Shown here piece after piece: positions 3,372 through 39,087 of a stretch of 39,087 nt of DNA. Within the stretch, counting starts at the first letter, position 1. Each line of letters opens with the position of its first letter. The stretch lies in assembly GCA_019348495.1 (NCBI GenBank), contig JAHWJI010000012.1, positions 1 to 39,087 of the forward strand, written 5' to 3'. The DNA is from Actinomycetota bacterium (GTDB lineage: Bacteria; Actinomycetota; Acidimicrobiia; Acidimicrobiales; CADCSY01). The notes beneath the pieces were generated by a model. That model ran no database searches and was not told the DNA's origin. It saw only the letters and a list, made by a program, of their open reading frames with translations. Position numbers and translations under genes: made by a program.

Positions 3372-3896
3372 TCAGTACTCGATGCCCTTCTTGGCCAGGA
3401 TGCCCTGGTCGTAGGCGTGCTTGACCTTGCGCATCTCGGTGACCGTGTCGGCCACCTCGACCAGGGCCTCGTGGGCATCACGGCCGGTGACGACCACGTT
3501 GGTGCACTCGGCTCGGTCCCGGATGCCAGCCACCACGTCGGCGGCGGGCACCCAGCCGTAGGTGATGATGTAGGTGAGCTCATCGAGTATGAGCAGGTCG
3601 TGCTCCCCGGCGGACAGCATGTCCCGGGCCACGTCCCAGGCGTGGCGGGCCTTGGCCGCCGACTCGTCGAGGTCGTCGGACTCCCAGGTGAAGCCGTCGC
3701 CCAGGGTGTGCCACTCGATGCCCAGGTGGTCGGCCAACTTGCGCTCGCCCGTCTGCCAGTTGCCCCCCTTGACGAACTGCACCACGCCGACCCGCCACCC
3801 CCGGGCCCAGCCCCGGCCCATGACGCCGAAGGCGGAGGACGACTTGCCCTTGCCGTGGCCGGTGTTGAGCACCACCACCGATGCCGCCCGTGCCAT
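3372..3896 (-). CDS. cobO: Cob(I)yrinic acid a,c-diamide adenosyltransferase (CobO/BtuR/CobA type)
   Basis: GHGKGKSSSAFG P-loop, FVKGGNW..GE, LLILDELTYIITYGW, VVTGRDAHEALVEVADTVTEM; start set at MARAASVVVLNTG, 174 aa. Confidence 0.95.
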   Translation of the reverse strand: MARAASVVVLNTGHGKGKSSSAFGVMGRGWARGWRVGVVQFVKGGNWQTGERKLADHLGIEWHTLGDGFTWESDDLDESAAKARHAWDVARDMLSAGEHDLLILDELTYIITYGWVPAADVVAGIRDRAECTNVVVTGRDAHEALVEVADTVTEMRKVKHAYDQGILAKKGIEY

Positions 3897-3992
3897 GTCC
3901 GCCCCTTCTACCTGGCCACGACACCGGTTGGCGAAAGGGTCACAGGGCCAGCCTACGCTCGCCACCTTGTCTCCTGGCCCGAGCATGGCGTC

Positions 3993-6644
3993 GTGAGGGG
4001 CGGGCTCATGGTCTGCGGCACGGCCAGCGACGTGGGCAAGAGCCACGTCGTCGCCGGGCTGTGCCGCCTGCTGGCCCGCCAGGGTGTGCGGGTGGCCCCG
4101 TTCAAGGCCCAGAACATGTCGCTCAACTCGTGGGTGACCGATGCCGGCCACGAGATCGGCCGGGCCCAGGGGGTGCAGGCGCTGGCCGCCGGCGTCGAGC
4201 CCGAGGTGGCCATGAACCCCATCCTGCTCAAGCCCACGGGTGAGCGAGCCAGCCAGGTGGTGGTCATGGGACACCCGTGGGCGCAGCTCGACGCCGTGGC
4301 CTACCACGACGAGAAGCCCCAGCTGCGGGGTGTGGTGCTGGAGGCCCTGGCCGACCTGCGGGCCCGCTTCGACGTGGTCGTGGCCGAAGGGGCGGGCGGT
4401 TGCGCCGAGATCAACCTCCTGGCCCACGATCTGGTCAACCTTCCCCTGGCGCACGCCGCCGGTCTGCCGGCGGTGGTCGTGGGCGACATCGACCGTGGCG
4501 GGGTCTTCGCCGCCCTCTACGGCTCGGTGGCGCTGCTGCCCGACGAGTTGCGCACCGTGGTGCGGGGCTTCGTCGTCAACAAGTTCCGGGGCGACCCTGC
4601 CCTGCTGGGCGACGCCACCACCGAGCTGCAACGACGAAGCGGAGTCCCGACTCTCGGGGTGTTGCCCTGGGTCGACGACGTCGCCCTCGACGCCGAGGAC
4701 TCCCTGGCCCTCGCCGGTCCCCGGCCCCGTGCCTCAGGTGCCCCAGTGCCCGACCGCCTCGACATCGCCGTGGTTCGCTTCCCCCACATCGCCAACGTCA
4801 CCGACCTCGACGCCCTCAGCCTCGAACCCGGGGCCGAGGTCCGCCTGGTCGAGCGGGCCTCGGCGTTGGGTCGGCCCGACCTCGTGGTGCTGCCCGGGAC
4901 CAAGGCCACCGTGTCCGACCTGGCCTGGCTGCGGGGGCAGGGCCTCGACCGGGCCGTCCTCGACTCGGGTGCCATGGTGCTCGGCATCTGCGGCGGCCAG
5001 CAGATGATGGGCGGGGTCATCGTCGACCGCTTCGAATCGGGCCGGGGTCGGGTCGAGGGGCTCGGCTGGCTCGACGTCACCACCACCTTCGCCGGGCACA
5101 AGGTCACCCGCAGGCGCCAGGGCGTGGCCTGGGGCCACGGCATCAGCGGCTATGAGATCCATCACGGACGTACGACCAGGGGCCCTGGAGTCAGGCCCTG
5201 GATCGACCTCGACGACACCCACGGGGCCGAGGCCGAGGGGGCGACCGACCTCGCCGGCGGGCGGTTCCTCGGCACCGTCCTTCACGGGCTGTTCGAGTCC
5301 GACGGGTTCCGTGCCGCGTTCCTGGCCGAGGTGGGCCGGCGGGCGGGCAGGGTCTTGGCTCCTGGCGGGGTGAGCTTCGCCGCCGCCCGTGAAGCCCAGC
5401 TCGACCGCCTGGCTGATCTGCTCGAGGCCCACCTCGACCTCGCCGCCCTCGAGGCCATCATCGAGAGAGGGGCGACGCGGTCCCCGGCGGCGACCGGCGT
5501 CAGCGTCGGGCAGGGAAGCCACGTCGAAGTGAGCTGCGGCGCCCCCAGGGGTGCCTTTGCCCGGGCGCTCGCCGCCGTGGTTCCCGTCGATGGCGCTGCC
5601 GGACAGGCCACGGCCGATCACCACGATCGCCTGGCCAAGCCCAAGGGCAGTCTGGGACAGTTGGAGGCCCTGGGGGAGAGGCTCTCGGCCATCGCTGGAG
5701 CGTCGCCCCCGCCCCCACCTGTGCCCGCTGCCGTGGCCGTGTTCGCGGCCGACCACGGGGCCCACGCCCAGGGGGTCTCGCCCTGGCCCCAGGAGGTGAC
5801 GGCCCAGATGGTGGCCACGGTGGTCGCCGGCAAGGCCGCCATCAACGTGCTCGCCCGCCAGGTGGGAGCGTCGGTCACCGTGATCGATGTCGGCGTGGCC
5901 CATCCCATCCCCGAGCCGGCGGTCCCGGCCAGCGTCCTGCTCCGGCGACGGGTGCGAGCCGGGACCGACGACCTCAGCGCCGGTCCGGCCATGCGGATCC
6001 AGGAGGCGGAGCAGGCACTCGACGTGGGTGCCGATGTGGCGGCCCAGCTCGTGAGCGAGGGCGCCCGCTGCCTGGTCACGGGCGAGCTCGGCATCGCCAA
6101 CACCACGTCCGCCGCTGCGGTGGTGGCCGCCCTCACGGGCCGCGCACCGGTCGAGACCACCGGGCGGGGGACCGGCGTCGACGACGTCACCTTGGCCCAC
6201 AAGGTCTCGGTGGTGGAGCGGGCACTGGCCCGCCCGGGCAGGGGCGGTGGCCCCCTCGCCGTGCTGTGCTCGGTGGGCGGGTTGGAGATCGCCGCCCTGG
6301 CCGGCTTCATCGTCGCCGGGGCGGCGGCCGGGGTCCCGGTGGTCGTCGACGGCTTGATCGCCGGCGCCGCCCTCTTGGTGGCGGCCGCGTTGGTTCCCGA
6401 CGTCACCGGCTACTGCGTGGCCGGCCACCGCTCCAGCGAACCGGGGGCGACGGTGGTGCTCGACCACCTCGGCCTCGACCCCGTCCTCGACCTCGGGCTG
6501 CACCTGGGCGAGGGCACCGGTGCCTGCCTGGCCCTGCCGGTGTTGGAGGCCGCCGCTCGGCTGCTGGCCGAGATGGCCACCCTCGACACCGCCGGCGTCA
6601 CCCCCTCTGTCGTCTCCGGCCCGAGACGGCCATCGCCCTCGTGA
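3993..6644 (+). CDS. cobQ: Fused cobyric acid synthase (CobQ/CbiP) and nicotinate-nucleotide--dimethylbenzimidazole phosphoribosyltransferase (CobT)
   Basis: N-terminal half: MVCGTASDVGKSHVVAGLCRLLARQGVRVAPFKAQNMSLNS...VLGICGGQQMMGG...VLHGLFE (CobQ). C-terminal half: KPKGSLGQLEALGERLSAIAG...FAADHGAHAQGVSPWPQEVT...GELGIANTTSAAA...GRGTGVDD...HLGEGTGACLALPVLEAA (CobT). One uninterrupted frame; start GTG 3993 or ATG 4008. Confidence 0.9.
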   Translation: MRGGLMVCGTASDVGKSHVVAGLCRLLARQGVRVAPFKAQNMSLNSWVTDAGHEIGRAQGVQALAAGVEPEVAMNPILLKPTGERASQVVVMGHPWAQLDAVAYHDEKPQLRGVVLEALADLRARFDVVVAEGAGGCAEINLLAHDLVNLPLAHAAGLPAVVVGDIDRGGVFAALYGSVALLPDELRTVVRGFVVNKFRGDPALLGDATTELQRRSGVPTLGVLPWVDDVALDAEDSLALAGPRPRASGAPVPDRLDIAVVRFPHIANVTDLDALSLEPGAEVRLVERASALGRPDLVVLPGTKATVSDLAWLRGQGLDRAVLDSGAMVLGICGGQQMMGGVIVDRFESGRGRVEGLGWLDVTTTFAGHKVTRRRQGVAWGHGISGYEIHHGRTTRGPGVRPWIDLDDTHGAEAEGATDLAGGRFLGTVLHGLFESDGFRAAFLAEVGRRAGRVLAPGGVSFAAAREAQLDRLADLLEAHLDLAALEAIIERGATRSPAATGVSVGQGSHVEVSCGAPRGAFARALAAVVPVDGAAGQATADHHDRLAKPKGSLGQLEALGERLSAIAGASPPPPPVPAAVAVFAADHGAHAQGVSPWPQEVTAQMVATVVAGKAAINVLARQVGASVTVIDVGVAHPIPEPAVPASVLLRRRVRAGTDDLSAGPAMRIQEAEQALDVGADVAAQLVSEGARCLVTGELGIANTTSAAAVVAALTGRAPVETTGRGTGVDDVTLAHKVSVVERALARPGRGGGPLAVLCSVGGLEIAALAGFIVAGAAAGVPVVVDGLIAGAALLVAAALVPDVTGYCVAGHRSSEPGATVVLDHLGLDPVLDLGLHLGEGTGACLALPVLEAAARLLAEMATLDTAGVTPSVVSGPRRPSPS

Positions 6645-8057: not shown

Positions 8058-8544
8058 GTTCTGCCTTCCGGAGGTTGGGGTCGCGAAACCCAATCGGCGC
8101 CGGAACGCGCCGCCTTGAGATCAGGAGGAGATCGTCACGGGATCGACACACCGGATTCGCGCCGGCCGTCCAGGCGCTGGCCACCAGCCTGGCCGCTCGA
8201 ACCGCCTCGTCATCGACGATAAGGACGAGCATCCTTTCGGGCCTTCACCGCCGGCTAGGCGTCAGCCACGCTGCTGGCGGTGTCTCAAGCTGGGTCGCCA
8301 CTCCCTGGGCCTCGACGAAGGCCCGCTACTTCGTGAAGCTGAGTCCCACGCCTACTATCGCCGTCCCGGCCCTGAGAGACCTCAAGAGACCAACCCGCTC
8401 CCACTCGGCCCCGGCGGACGCCGGGTCCTGGCGGCGCCGACGACAGGTCAAGCAGGCTCACGAGGTGGTGAACTTCCTCGAAATTGGTACCGGTGCTGGG
8501 GGCGAGGGCAGGGTGGTGGTACGGAGTACGAGGAGGTCTCCCAC

Positions 8545-9197
8545 ATGGCCAACAGCATCTTCCGAGACGAGGTCGATCGTCTCCTGGAGGAAGGGGGTGC
8601 CCAGCTCGTCGAGGTGCTGCCCCCTGCCGAGTATGCGTGGGCGCATCTGCCCGGCGCCGTCAATCTCCCGCTCAAGGAGCTCGACGCCCACGCCGCCTCG
8701 GTTCTGGACGTGCAGCGTCCGGTCATCGCCTACTGCCACGACTTTCAATGAGACATGAGCCCCCGAGCCGCGTGGCGGCTCGAACGGTTCGGCTTCGAGC
8801 GGGTCTACGACTACGTGCCCGGCAAGATGGAATGGCTGTCGTTCGGACGGGCCCATGAGGGCACCGCCCAGCTGGCCGGCGACATGCTGCACTCCGACGT
8901 GCCCACCTGTTCCGTGGAGTCCCGTCTCGGCGAGATGAAGTCCCGTCTGGACGAGGAAGGGGCCGCCTTCTGTGGGGCCGCCGGCGACGACGGTGTCGTC
9001 GCCGGCATCGTCCAGGGCAAGGCCCTCGACGCCAATCCACCCTCACCATCGAGGAGGTGATGGAGTTTGGCGTGACCACGGTGCGACCCGCCGAGGAAGT
9101 TGGGCCATTGCACGAGCGGATGCGGAGCTCCGGCGTCGAAGGGATCCTGGTCACGAGATCCGATGGCCGCTTCCTGGGCCTGCTGCTCGGCGAATAG
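8545..9197 (+). CDS. Rhodanese-like protein with C-terminal CBS domain; in-frame TGA at 8749-8751 (candidate Sec codon) and an apparent -1 frameshift near 9036-9040
   Basis: AGGAGG RBS at 8531-8536; frame 1 reads MANSIFRDEVDRLL...VIAYCHDFQ[TGA]DMSPRAAWRLERFGFERVYDYVPGKMEWLSFG...DVPTCSVESRLGEM...; CBS tail TLTIEEVMEFGVTTVRPAEEVGPLHERMRSSGVEGILVTRSDGRFLGLLLGE* is in frame 3, ending at 9197. Confidence 0.75.
8764..8782 (+). promoter_or_regulatory. Candidate bacterial SECIS-like hairpin downstream of TGA 8749-8751
   Basis: cgagccgc-gtg-gcggctcg: 8-bp perfect stem, GUG apical loop, 20 nt between the UGA and the loop. Confidence 0.4.
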
Positions 9198-9265: not shown

Positions 9266-9685
9266 CTAGACGCTCTTCTGGCGGACGTGTTCGATCAGCC
9301 CGCAGATGCTGCCCTTGGCGCCGGCTGTGTCCTGGGCCCGTCGCTCCAGCGCGGCCAGCTCTTGGCGCAGGCTCTGCAGCTCCTCGAGCCGGCGGTCGAT
9401 GTCAGCGAGCTCCTGGCTGATCAAGTCACGGACGTAGTCACAGGGCGCCTCCCCCCGCTCCCGCAGGGCAAGGATCTCGCGCACCTCGTCCAGCGCCAAG
9501 CCCAGCCGCTGCGCCGACTTGATGAAGACGAGGCGCTCCACGTCGGCCTCCGAGTAGATCCGGTAGCCCGACGACGTGCGCTCAGGCTCGGGCACCAGAC
9601 CGATCGACTCGTAGTAGCGGATGGTCTTGGTGTTGACCCCGAGCCGCTCGCCCAGCTCTCCGATACGCACGCCTACCTCCTCCAA
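9266..9685 (-). CDS. MerR-family metal-responsive transcriptional regulator
   Basis: VRIGELGERLGVNTKTIRYYESIGLVPEPERTSSGYRIYSEADVERLVFIKSAQRLGLALDEVREIL; C-terminal Cys (APCDYVRDLI, SICGLIEH) in the metal-sensor region. Confidence 0.93.
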   Translation of the reverse strand: MEEVGVRIGELGERLGVNTKTIRYYESIGLVPEPERTSSGYRIYSEADVERLVFIKSAQRLGLALDEVREILALRERGEAPCDYVRDLISQELADIDRRLEELQSLRQELAALERRAQDTAGAKGSICGLIEHVRQKSV

Positions 9686-9862: not shown

Positions 9863-10093
9863 ATGACCAACCAACTCGTACTCCAGGTGGGGGGCATGAC
9901 CTGCACCGGCTGCGAGGTCCGGGTGGGCAAGGTGCTGGGCCGCCTCGACGGCGTGCGCACCGCCGCTGCCGATCACCAGGCCGGCGAGGTCCGGGTCCTC
10001 TTCGATTCCGACCAGACATCCCCGGCGTCCATCGGTGCCGCCATCACCGCCGCCGGCTACCAGGTCAATGGCGAAGCGAAGGATTCACGATGA
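9863..10093 (+). CDS. Heavy-metal-associated (HMA) domain metallochaperone, CopZ-like
   Basis: LQVGGMTCTGCEVRVGKVLGRLDGV HMA motif; RBS AGGAGGG just upstream. Confidence 0.9.
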   Translation: MTNQLVLQVGGMTCTGCEVRVGKVLGRLDGVRTAAADHQAGEVRVLFDSDQTSPASIGAAITAAGYQVNGEAKDSR

Positions 10094-12585
10094 CCACGAC
10101 CAACCGGCAGGTCAAGGACGAGGGCGCAGACACCTTGTGGGACGAAGAGCCGAGCAACCTGGAGGGCCACGCCCGCATCCGGGCTCGCATCTCCGGGCTG
10201 CACTGCTCGCTGTGCACCGGCACCATCGAAAAGGCCCTCGGGCGCATCGACGGTATCGACAAGGTGGCCGTGAGCCTCAGCCACGAGCAGGCCCTGGTCG
10301 ACTACGACCCGAAACGGGTCCGCCCCGAGGTGGTGCTCGGCACGCTGCGAGACATCGGCTATGACCTCTACGACCCTCGCAAGGTGCGACCGTTCGAGGA
10401 GGAAGAGGCGGCCCTGGTGCGTGAGGGCCGCCGTCTGCTCACCGCCACTGGTCTCAGCCTGTTGGCCATCGCCCTCATCGTGGTGGTCGACAGCCTCTGG
10501 TCGGCCCTGGTGCCGGCCACCGTGGTGGCCAGCCTTGTCCCGGTGGCCTTCTTCATCTTGCGTCCCTTCGGGATGGGCAAGGCCGTCGGGGGCACACTGG
10601 CCCTGACGGCGCCCCCGGTAGCTGTCCTCATGGTCCGGGCCAACGGCGTGGGCGAGAGCGGCCCCGGCGAGGCCGCCATCCCCTGGATCGTCGCCGCTCT
10701 CGCCTTGGGAGTGGTCTTCGGCGTGGCCGGCCACATCCTGCGCATGGCCTACCAGTCGGCGCGGCGGGGCATCCTCAACCAGCACGTCCTGTTGGAGGTC
10801 GGGGCCTTCGCCGGCATCGCCGGGGGCATCTACGGGCTGGCGGCCGGCGGGGACAACTTCCCCACCGCCCCGTTCTTCGCCGTCACCGTGCTGGTGGCCA
10901 ACTACCACATCTTCTCCGAGTGGCTGTCCCTGCTGGTCAAGACCCGCAGCTCCCAGGCGGTCAAGCGGCTATTGGACCTGCAACCCGACACCGCCCGGGT
11001 GCGCCGGGGTGACGAGGAGCTGGAGGTGCCCATCGCCGAGGTGGCCCTGGGTGACCTGGTGCGGGTGCGCCCGGGCGAGCGCATCCCGGTGGACGGCGAG
11101 GTGGTCAGCGGCCACTCGGCTGTCGACCAAGCCCTCGTCACCGGCGAACCGGTCCCGGTCGAGCGCTCCGAGGGCGACCCGCTCATCGGCGGGTCGATCA
11201 ACACCTCGGGCACCCTTCTGGTGCGGGTCACCGCGGTGGGCACCGAGAGCTTCCTGGCCCAGATCGTGCGCCACGTGGAGGACGCCCGGGCCCTCAAGCC
11301 GGGCATCTTGCACCTGGTCGACCGGGTGCTGCGGGTCTACACCCCCACCGTGCTGGTGGTCGCCGCGGTGGCGGCACTGGGCTGGACCGTTGGTACCGCC
11401 CTCTTCGGCGGTGACGCCGACGTCGAGCGGGCGGTCTTCGCCGGCCTCGGTGTGCTGGTGATGGGCTACCCCTGCGCGGTGGGCATCGCCGCTCCCCTGG
11501 CCATCGTGCGAGGGGCGGGCGAGGCGGCTGACGAGGGCATCATCATGCGCACGGGCGAGGCCTTCCAGGCCTTCCGCTCGATCACCCATGTGGTGTTGGA
11601 CAAGACCGGGACCCTGACCGAGGGACGTCCCACCGTCCGCGAAGTCGAGGCCCTGGGTGACACTGATGAGCTGGTGCGCCTGGCGGCGGCGGCGGAGTCG
11701 TCCTCCGAGCACCCGCTGGGACAGGCCGTGGTGGCATCCGCCTTCGAGCGCAAGCTGGCGTTGCCGACGGTCAGCGACTTCGAGTCGGTCACCGGCTTCG
11801 GCGTGCGGGCGATCGTCGACGGCGAGCACGTCCTGGTCGGGCGTCCCCGCTTCCTGGAGGAGAACGGCGTCGACCTCAGCACCTTGAGTGAGCGCATCGA
11901 GTCGCTGCAAGACGCCGGGCGCACCGTCATCGTCGTCAGCCGCCAGGGTCGGGCCCTCGGCGTGTTGGCCTTGGGTGACGAGCTGCGGGCCGATGCCGTC
12001 GAAGCGGTGGTGGCCATGCGTCAGGCCAAGCTCACGCCGGTGCTGGTCACCGGCGACAACGAGGCCGCCGCGCGCCGGGTTGCCGGCCAGCTTGGCATCG
12101 ACGAGGTCCACGGTGGGGTGTTGCCCGAGGGCAAGGCCGAGATCGTCCGTCGCTTCCAGCACGACGGCAACAAGGTCGCCATGGTGGGCGACGGCATCAA
12201 CGACGCCCCCGCCCTCATGCAGGCCAACGTGGGTGTGGCCATGGGCGGCGGCACCGACATCGCCATGGAGTCGGCCGACATCATCATCGTAGGCAACGAG
12301 GTGGCGTCGGTGCTGCGGGCTCGGGAGATCAGCCGCCGCAGCTACCGCACCACCCGCCAGAACGTGTCGCTCGCCTTCTTGTTCAACGGCATCGGCATCC
12401 CCGCTGCCGCCACCGGGCTGGTCTACCCGGTGTGGGCCATGGTGGCCATGGCGGCCAGCGTGACCACCATCTTCATCAACTCCATCGGAGGCCGTCCGTC
12501 TTTGCTCTTCGACGCCATCACCAGCGTTGGTCGTACGGAGGGGCCGGAGTTCAAGGAGGCCAACACGGTGCACGTGGCCACGTGA
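10090..12585 (+). CDS. P1B-type heavy-metal transporting ATPase with N-terminal HMA domain and YPC transmembrane motif
   Basis: GLHCSLCTGTIEKAL HMA; TGEPVPVE; MGYPCAVGIAAPLAIVRGAGEAADEGIIMRTGE; DKTGTLTEG; SSSEHPLGQA (HP locus); GDGINDAPAL; start overlaps the chaperone stop (ATGA). Confidence 0.93.
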   Translation: MTTTNRQVKDEGADTLWDEEPSNLEGHARIRARISGLHCSLCTGTIEKALGRIDGIDKVAVSLSHEQALVDYDPKRVRPEVVLGTLRDIGYDLYDPRKVRPFEEEEAALVREGRRLLTATGLSLLAIALIVVVDSLWSALVPATVVASLVPVAFFILRPFGMGKAVGGTLALTAPPVAVLMVRANGVGESGPGEAAIPWIVAALALGVVFGVAGHILRMAYQSARRGILNQHVLLEVGAFAGIAGGIYGLAAGGDNFPTAPFFAVTVLVANYHIFSEWLSLLVKTRSSQAVKRLLDLQPDTARVRRGDEELEVPIAEVALGDLVRVRPGERIPVDGEVVSGHSAVDQALVTGEPVPVERSEGDPLIGGSINTSGTLLVRVTAVGTESFLAQIVRHVEDARALKPGILHLVDRVLRVYTPTVLVVAAVAALGWTVGTALFGGDADVERAVFAGLGVLVMGYPCAVGIAAPLAIVRGAGEAADEGIIMRTGEAFQAFRSITHVVLDKTGTLTEGRPTVREVEALGDTDELVRLAAAAESSSEHPLGQAVVASAFERKLALPTVSDFESVTGFGVRAIVDGEHVLVGRPRFLEENGVDLSTLSERIESLQDAGRTVIVVSRQGRALGVLALGDELRADAVEAVVAMRQAKLTPVLVTGDNEAAARRVAGQLGIDEVHGGVLPEGKAEIVRRFQHDGNKVAMVGDGINDAPALMQANVGVAMGGGTDIAMESADIIIVGNEVASVLRAREISRRSYRTTRQNVSLAFLFNGIGIPAAATGLVYPVWAMVAMAASVTTIFINSIGGRPSLLFDAITSVGRTEGPEFKEANTVHVAT

Positions 12586-38789: not shown

Positions 38790-39087
38790 ATGGACCTGCG
38801 CAGCTGGATCGAGCAGTGGCCTGTCACCCGGCAGCTCACGGGCCACGACCGGCTGGGTCGGGGTGCGGCGGCGATGTCCCCCCGTTCAGCCCAGCTACGA
38901 GCCCGCACCGAGGATGCCGACACGGTGAGCCGGTCGGTGTGCCCCTACTGCGCGGTGGGATGTGGGCAGAAGGTGTACGTCCGCCACGACCGCGTCACAC
39001 AGATCGAGGGAGATCCCGACAGCCCCATCTCCCGAGGACGCCTGTGCCCCAAGGGAGCAGCGAGCAAGGACCTGGTGACCAGCCCGC
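38790..39087 (+). CDS. Formate dehydrogenase / molybdopterin oxidoreductase alpha subunit, 3' truncated by window end
   Basis: RBS AGGAGG 38781-38786; SRSVCPYCAVGCGQKVYVRHDRVTQIEGDPDSPISRGRLCPKGAAS ([4Fe-4S] Mop domain); next to fdhD and mobA. Confidence 0.92.
   Translation, partial: MDLRSWIEQWPVTRQLTGHDRLGRGAAAMSPRSAQLRARTEDADTVSRSVCPYCAVGCGQKVYVRHDRVTQIEGDPDSPISRGRLCPKGAASKDLVTSP

Follow-up and report, generated by a model that had tools for sequence, protein, structure and literature searches.

A predicted selenocysteine-containing rhodanese-CBS protein in Acidimicrobiia and related bacteria, with a possible link to metal defence

Does a TGA codon in the active loop of a rhodanese gene end the protein, or does it specify selenocysteine (Sec)? 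The question is raised by a stretch of 39,087 nucleotides (the window) from an actinomycetote of the class Acidimicrobiia. A gene on its forward strand starts with ATG at position 8545, preceded by a probable ribosome-binding site (purine-rich GAGGAGG, 8530..8536, + strand), and reads ...PVIAYCHDFQ-TGA-DMSPRAAWRLERFGFERVYDYVPGK... in one frame, the rhodanese sequence resuming past the TGA at 8749-8751. A sequence-only reading of the window had proposed a selenocysteine rhodanese, with protein-like sequence beyond the in-frame TGA and the TGA at the second Cys of a CX4C loop. The first point is borne out by the window sequence, the second by Cys homologues, which have Cys in the same column. 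With TGA taken as Sec, the gene as read comprises 171 codons (8545..9060, + strand) and matches the rhodanese domain PF00581 of Pfam with 50 bits (cut-off 22.2), the match spanning the TGA. By alignment, the TGA (8749..8751, + strand) is residue 69 and takes the second CX4C position of the Cys homologues. The first Cys of the resulting CX4U loop, C64 (TGC, 8734..8736, + strand), is the active-loop Cys after the beta-strand; it aligns to the canonical rhodanese nucleophile position, and its column is invariably Cys or Sec in the family. Elsewhere in the window, one long open reading frame at 3417-6644 resembles cobyric acid synthase and CobT-type cobalamin genes (fusion or run-on).

We consider it highly probable that the window gene codes for a selenoprotein, predicted to consist of a rhodanese domain and a pair of CBS domains, Sec occupying the second Cys site of a CX4C-type loop and its UGA at 8749 being decoded by the Sec system of the host via a hairpin at 8764-8782. 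The Sec machinery, the UGA orthologues, the Cys column and the UGA-specific selection of the hairpin all support the selenocysteine rhodanese first proposed.

Selenocysteine machinery of the host and the meaning of UGA

The host genome is a metagenome-assembled genome (MAG) of 2.21 Mb, 98.1% complete with 1.5% contamination (G000). A search for selA, selB, selC and selD, which the sequence-only reading had recommended, found all four: SelA (C117:36532-37572), SelB (C117:35360-36415), a tRNA-Sec (67.8 bits; called tRNA-SeC with anticodon tca (UCA) by ARAGORN) and a SelD with an in-frame TGA of its own (context HGAGUACKLAPG). A formate dehydrogenase, FdhA, on contig C74 (L208) also has an in-frame UGA (ARI-U-HSATVPG). 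Since both SelD and FdhA carry Sec motifs, the host has, on sequence grounds, two or more canonical selenoproteins. The window itself has an fdh-like open reading frame beginning at 38790, as had been noted, but this formate-dehydrogenase-like N terminus (38790-39087), similar to the FdhA of C74, leaves the contig before the Sec position.

That UGA is read as an ordinary amino acid or through general read-through, as the several genes with in-frame TGA might suggest, can be dismissed as having next to no probability, because TGA is the commonest stop of long frames in the window (31 of 48 frames of at least 300 codons in a mechanical count) and ends the ATPase and CopZ genes there, the in-frame TGAs found sit at the Sec positions of SelD, FdhA and the rhodanese-CBS family, and the host has a dedicated tRNA-Sec with the tca anticodon.

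Homologues, hairpin and the integrity of the window copy

Rhodanese matches in the host number seven. Three of them contain one TGA each, all at the same codon, and are paralogues, with the loops YCHDFQ-U-DMSPRAA (C33, the window copy), YCNDLL-U-DMSPRAA (C20) and YCWDGL-U-DMSPRAA (C113). They are divergent and fall into three separate clades of the tree, hence they are not recent duplicates of one accident. The search for the family covered 395 genomes of the class Acidimicrobiia and GTDB species genomes. Further UGA-containing orthologues, which the earlier reading had suggested looking for, are present in about 50 genomes, across families of Acidimicrobiia, in other Actinomycetota and in Chloroflexota/Thermomicrobiota. 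The family comprises CX4U forms, CX4C forms (mainly in Streptosporangiaceae, Streptomycetaceae and Micromonosporaceae) and UX4U forms in which both positions are TGA (e.g. YUHDGLUDMSPRAACRLE). Many of the UGA homologues are of this double-Sec type; their TGAs are 15 nt apart, they occur in Acidimicrobiia genomes (L140-L161) and in a member of the Chloroflexi (L077), and in the tree they lie scattered among CX4U forms. The Sec codon is TGA in each of the three paralogues and in the roughly 45 homologues that were examined, and the Cys/Sec column is nearly invariant in the family alignment. The UGA form is also found, together with the hairpin, on complete plasmids from three strains in culture, namely Pseudonocardia broussonetiae (NZ_CP053565.1), P. 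autotrophica (NZ_AP018921.1) and Rubrobacter marinus (NZ_CP045122.1). A metagenome artefact is therefore no longer a worry.

Of 47 genomes with UGA forms, 40 gave a SelA match, vs 12 of 23 with Cys forms (Fisher p = 0.007, indicative only, since the genomes are not independent). For two of the seven UGA-form genomes without SelA, a tRNA-Sec passes the cut-off, and in another one a partial tRNA-Sec sits at the edge of a contig. Counting this last one, 5 of the 47 thus gave neither SelA nor a complete tRNA-Sec above the cut-off; completeness is 60-73% in four of these genomes and is not stated for the fifth, a Chloroflexi MAG. A homologue in genome G047 (L160) has Ser at the Sec position (YCSDAHSDLSARA) despite SelA and tRNA-Sec in the genome, and a homologue in G107, of the same genus, has no in-frame stop (G107:C25:26829-27488). 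More distant rhodaneses lacking SPRAA also have a CX4U loop with an in-frame TGA in a deltaproteobacterium (YCAKFTUDAS, L127), an acidobacterium (YCASLHUHAS, L128) and a member of the Rubrobacteraceae (YCMNTMUPAS, L129), and SelA is encoded in all three genomes.

Downstream of the TGA, the window contains the SECIS-like hairpin that had been described from the letters (8764..8782, + strand), with a perfect 8-bp stem (8764-8771 and 8775-8782; comparative pairing shows 7 bp to be conserved in the family) and a GUG loop (GTG, 8772-8774). The distance from the TGA is 12 nt to the stem and 20 nt to the first loop base, so that the published bacterial spacing and the loop G are matched, as claimed. 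The local fold of the window region alone is unremarkable (z = -1.28 vs dinucleotide shuffles), its single-sequence energy is not significant, and one hairpin by itself is therefore unconvincing; the comparison across the family is far beyond chance. With the window stem as model, all 7 pairs are formed in 43 of 45 UGA genes vs 3 of 44 Cys/Ser homologues, whereas redrawing synonymous codons from the same genes gave a mean of 2.2 of 45 and a maximum of 8 in 2000 resamplings. The excess of pairing in the UGA forms is due to codon choice: the second Ala codon is GCG in 45/45 UGA forms vs 17/44 Cys/Ser forms, the Leu codon CTC or CTT in 45/45 vs 19/44, and the Arg codon CGA, CGG or AGG in 45/45 vs 14/44. 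One pair switches jointly, being GCC..CGG (C-G) in 39 genes, GCT..CAG (U-A) in 4 and GCA..CTG (A-U) in 2, so that where Arg is replaced by Gln or Leu, a synonymous change of the Ala codon goes with it. The tree places these compensatory changes in three lineages (L025 with the near-identical L027; L105 and L155; L150 and L154). The loop codon is TGG, TGC or TGT in 43 of 45 UGA forms vs 1 of 44 others, and the RNA thus appears to dictate the residue encoded by the loop (Trp or Cys). Sliding the partner strand by 1-3 bases abolished the pairing. As judged from these alignments, the hairpin is selected specifically in the UGA forms. In UX4U genes, a single hairpin would serve both UGAs, which are about 21 and 36 nt away. 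For the window gene, we propose that UGA 8749 would be decoded as Sec by SelA, SelB, tRNA-Sec and SelD of the host, directed by the hairpin, and insertion of selenium at this codon is very likely.

The hairpin also bears on the reading implied by current annotation, in which the UGA is a true stop that separates a 68-residue rhodanese fragment from a CBS protein starting at ATG 8755. RefSeq has two CDSs divided at the TGA, a 'rhodanese-like' fragment and a 'CBS domain-containing protein', on both Pseudonocardia plasmids, and the genes of P. broussonetiae (L204 438-1103), P. autotrophica (L206 8977-9645) and R. marinus (L205 9109-9603) are split or truncated at this codon; an ATG one codon past the TGA is found in most homologues. 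However, a stop would break the rhodanese fold inside its active loop, the Cys homologues are single open reading frames with Cys at the TGA codon, and neither the UGA-specific selection of the hairpin nor the second UGA at the first Cys codon of the UX4U forms would be explained. A true stop is thus very improbable.

The window copy has a defect of its own. Relative to the family, a -1 frameshift lies near 9031-9038 (9031..9038, + strand; one base lost or two gained, by mutation or assembly error), as the sequence-only reading had noticed. Owing to this shift, the TGA at 9058-9060 is out of the family frame, and the second CBS half continues in the shifted frame (9036..9197, + strand) without further stops to a TAG at 9195-9197. 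While the UGA forms continue for 133-220 codons from the loop, the frameshifted copy continues for 109. None of the other paralogues and homologues read share the frameshift, and independent disabling mutations in close relatives, which would have pointed to a plain pseudogene, are not seen in the C20 and C113 copies, both intact through the predicted CBS pair. Because of the frameshift, the window copy may no longer yield a full-length protein, and it may be decaying or mis-assembled. That it is a decaying pseudogene, with a real frameshift, no full-length product and a TGA that is the relic of a functional Sec codon, is possible, though we lean away from it. The shift disrupts the predicted CBS pair and, as two intact paralogues exist, the loss of one copy could be harmless. 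On the other hand, no further disabling change is present, both frames are otherwise open and conserved, ribosome-binding site, Sec codon and hairpin are all intact, and a single base error is common in a MAG of 161 contigs. The concern about a decayed gene or poor assembly therefore stands for the window copy but not for the Sec reading of the family, which is untouched by it; the frameshift affects this copy and not the conclusion on selenocysteine.

Fold, active loop and known selenoproteins

An AlphaFold2 model of an intact paralogue, based on a 65-row alignment, has a mean pLDDT of 96.6. Foldseek matched it to rhodaneses, with BH2092 (3nhv) as the best, and to CBS-pair proteins such as MgtE and AcuB. 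The Pfam CBS score of the paralogue is 15.8 bits, below the cut-off of 24, and in the window copy the second half is out of frame. The family profile aligns with BH2092 (PDB 3nhv/3o3w) without gaps through the loop (YCWGPACNGATKAA vs YCxDxxUDxSPRAA). In this alignment the first Cys takes the canonical nucleophile position and Sec corresponds to the second Cys of CX4C; BH2092 differs in having Cys instead of Sec and in lacking the CBS pair. The CX4U redox or sulfurtransferase site suggested by the first reading fits this alignment with a CX4C rhodanese, and the Cys/Sec pair is likely to be catalytic. The first Cys (or Sec) would act as the rhodanese nucleophile and could form a chalcogen pair with the Sec five residues on. 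Such a pair might accept sulfane sulfur that is then resolved by the selenolate, or it might hold a soft metal between S and Se.

A 2026 inventory lists 119 prokaryotic selenoprotein families and subfamilies, among them five rhodanese forms (UxxS, UxxG, CxU, UxxG and UxxxxU; PMC13188914). A CX4U rhodanese with a CBS pair is not described there (PMC13188914), and no NCBIfam model of June 2026 scores the CX4U/UX4U rhodanese-CBS proteins over its cut-off; known NCBIfam selenoprotein families were rejected, all scores being far below the cut-offs. Our literature search found no selenoprotein combining rhodanese and CBS domains, Haft and Tolstoy 2025, the source of TsoB, lying outside its scope. 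TsoB (NF045694; form 5, PMC13188914) shares with the UX4U subgroup two Sec at the same spacing (UxxxxU), and its profile weakly overlaps the rhodanese-CBS loop (16.9-23.8 bits vs a cut-off of 805). However, it is a rhodanese/DsbD-type fusion of 572 positions, whereas the present family is rhodanese plus CBS and often CX4U. Form 1 (UxxS, WP_010941598.1; PMC13188914) was compared by motif only. The family motif U-D-[LM]-S is compatible with it, and the Sec position may for this reason be common to both, but neither a CBS pair nor CX4U is reported for form 1 in the inventory (PMC13188914). The rhodanese-related (seleno)protein NF041203 (CxU, LYCAU) also has its Sec just past a Cys, two residues and not five, and the present protein reaches 12.8 bits against its cut-off of 115. 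We file the CX4U/UX4U rhodanese-CBS proteins as a new subfamily of rhodanese selenoproteins.

Gene neighbours and possible role

The window gene is followed by a metal-type regulator of the MerR family (9266..9685, - strand; NCBIfam MerR 113.6 and CadR/PbrR 110.7 bits, both below the cut-offs), a CopZ/MerP-like HMA metal-binding protein (9863..10093, + strand) and a heavy-metal P-type ATPase (10090..12585, + strand; TIGR01525, 555 bits, over the cut-off). In a Thermomicrobiales locus (L057) the UGA gene is followed by the same order, MerR-CopZ-ATPase. Across the family, a metal MerR regulator is nearby in 22/49 UGA-form loci vs 0/41 Cys-form loci, a thioredoxin-like gene that belongs or is close to the DF family in 19/49 vs 1/41 and MerB in 6/49 vs 0/41, a contrast that is suggestive and partly phylogenetic, since there is some redundancy among the loci and the Cys set covers a narrow taxonomic range, being dominated by relatives of Nonomuraea and Streptomyces. 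The DF gene, a member or near relative of the DF family (seleno)protein NF049942 (deep-Sep, PMC12013277), lies just upstream in many Sec-form operons and often overlaps or abuts the rhodanese gene. It is a neighbour rather than a rhodanese-CBS protein, and in the loci read no UGA of its own was found, all being Cys forms.

The assignment of MerB is based on Pfam and NCBIfam profile matches and on a visible CxxD catalytic motif (CAWD, CALD). A cluster of MerR, MerB, the DF-family thioredoxin-like protein and the selenorhodanese is present at L166 (3881-5521), L168 (5108-7327) and L206 (7463-9645). The last is on the P. autotrophica plasmid, which comes on top of the six UGA loci with MerB counted above and where the order is MerR, alkylmercury lyase, DF, rhodanese|CBS, a hypothetical protein and MFS; the DF protein there scores 105 bits vs a cut-off of 70. 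A MerA fragment adjoins the rhodanese-CBS gene at G319:C204. Such loci resemble mer operons in that MerR, MerB and sometimes MerA adjoin Sec-form genes. The window copy differs: MerB, MerA and DF are all absent beside it, where only the metal MerR, the CopZ-like protein and the ATPase are found. To our knowledge, rhodanese-CBS proteins have not been described as part of mer systems. Lack of MerA as a reason for having the Sec protein was considered and rejected, as the host has a mercuric reductase MerA over the curated cut-off (G000:C6:634-1995).

Neighbours vary by subgroup, with an F420 LLM oxidoreductase in one clade and none in others. That clade and, separately, the C20 copy of the host are paired with a TIGR03557 F420-dependent LLM oxidoreductase, in Sec and Cys forms alike. 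The pairing is seen in L007, L026, L097, L136, L177 and L178, the last two having a GH15/trehalase-like gene as well. In Nonomuraea loci such as L082 and L089, the Cys form has a small gene next to it that looks like HesB/IscA and runs on the other strand.

Selenolates have a high affinity for Hg(II). Judged from the gene neighbours, the chances that the protein serves in protection against mercury or other thiophilic metals are about evenly balanced. It might receive or clear Hg(II) after MerB, or work with the thioredoxin-like DF protein to repair the damage that Hg(II) does to thiols. It is tempting to speculate, more tentatively, that CX4U/UX4U rhodanese-CBS proteins are a widespread Sec-dependent metal-defence enzyme, encoded on chromosomes and plasmids and in MerR-MerB-DF operons, whose Se/S or Se/Se pair would bind or neutralise Hg(II) or repair its damage while the CBS domains would sense nucleotides. 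A credible alternative, to be held just as tentatively, is a selenoprotein that serves in sulfane-sulfur transfer or thiol redox chemistry of a general kind, perhaps alongside F420 enzymes, and to which the metal genes are incidental neighbours. The rhodanese fold with its CX4C-type loop, the TIGR03557 pairing in one clade including the C20 copy, and a ThiC gene adjoining the L164 gene would fit such a function. However, the association with MerR, DF and MerB recurs in different families, also on a plasmid whose host belongs to another order, and it is almost confined to Sec forms.

Irrespective of the role, a well-supported selenoprotein subfamily is added for Actinomycetota and Chloroflexota, one in which annotation pipelines cut the rhodanese short and list the CBS part as a protein of its own. 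Its UX4U members show, at the level of predicted sequence, a rhodanese with two Sec in its active loop. Finally, selenocysteine would here lie beside organomercurial lyase genes, in one case on a plasmid whose host is in culture, so that the idea of a selenium-based defence against mercury or metals is open to direct test.
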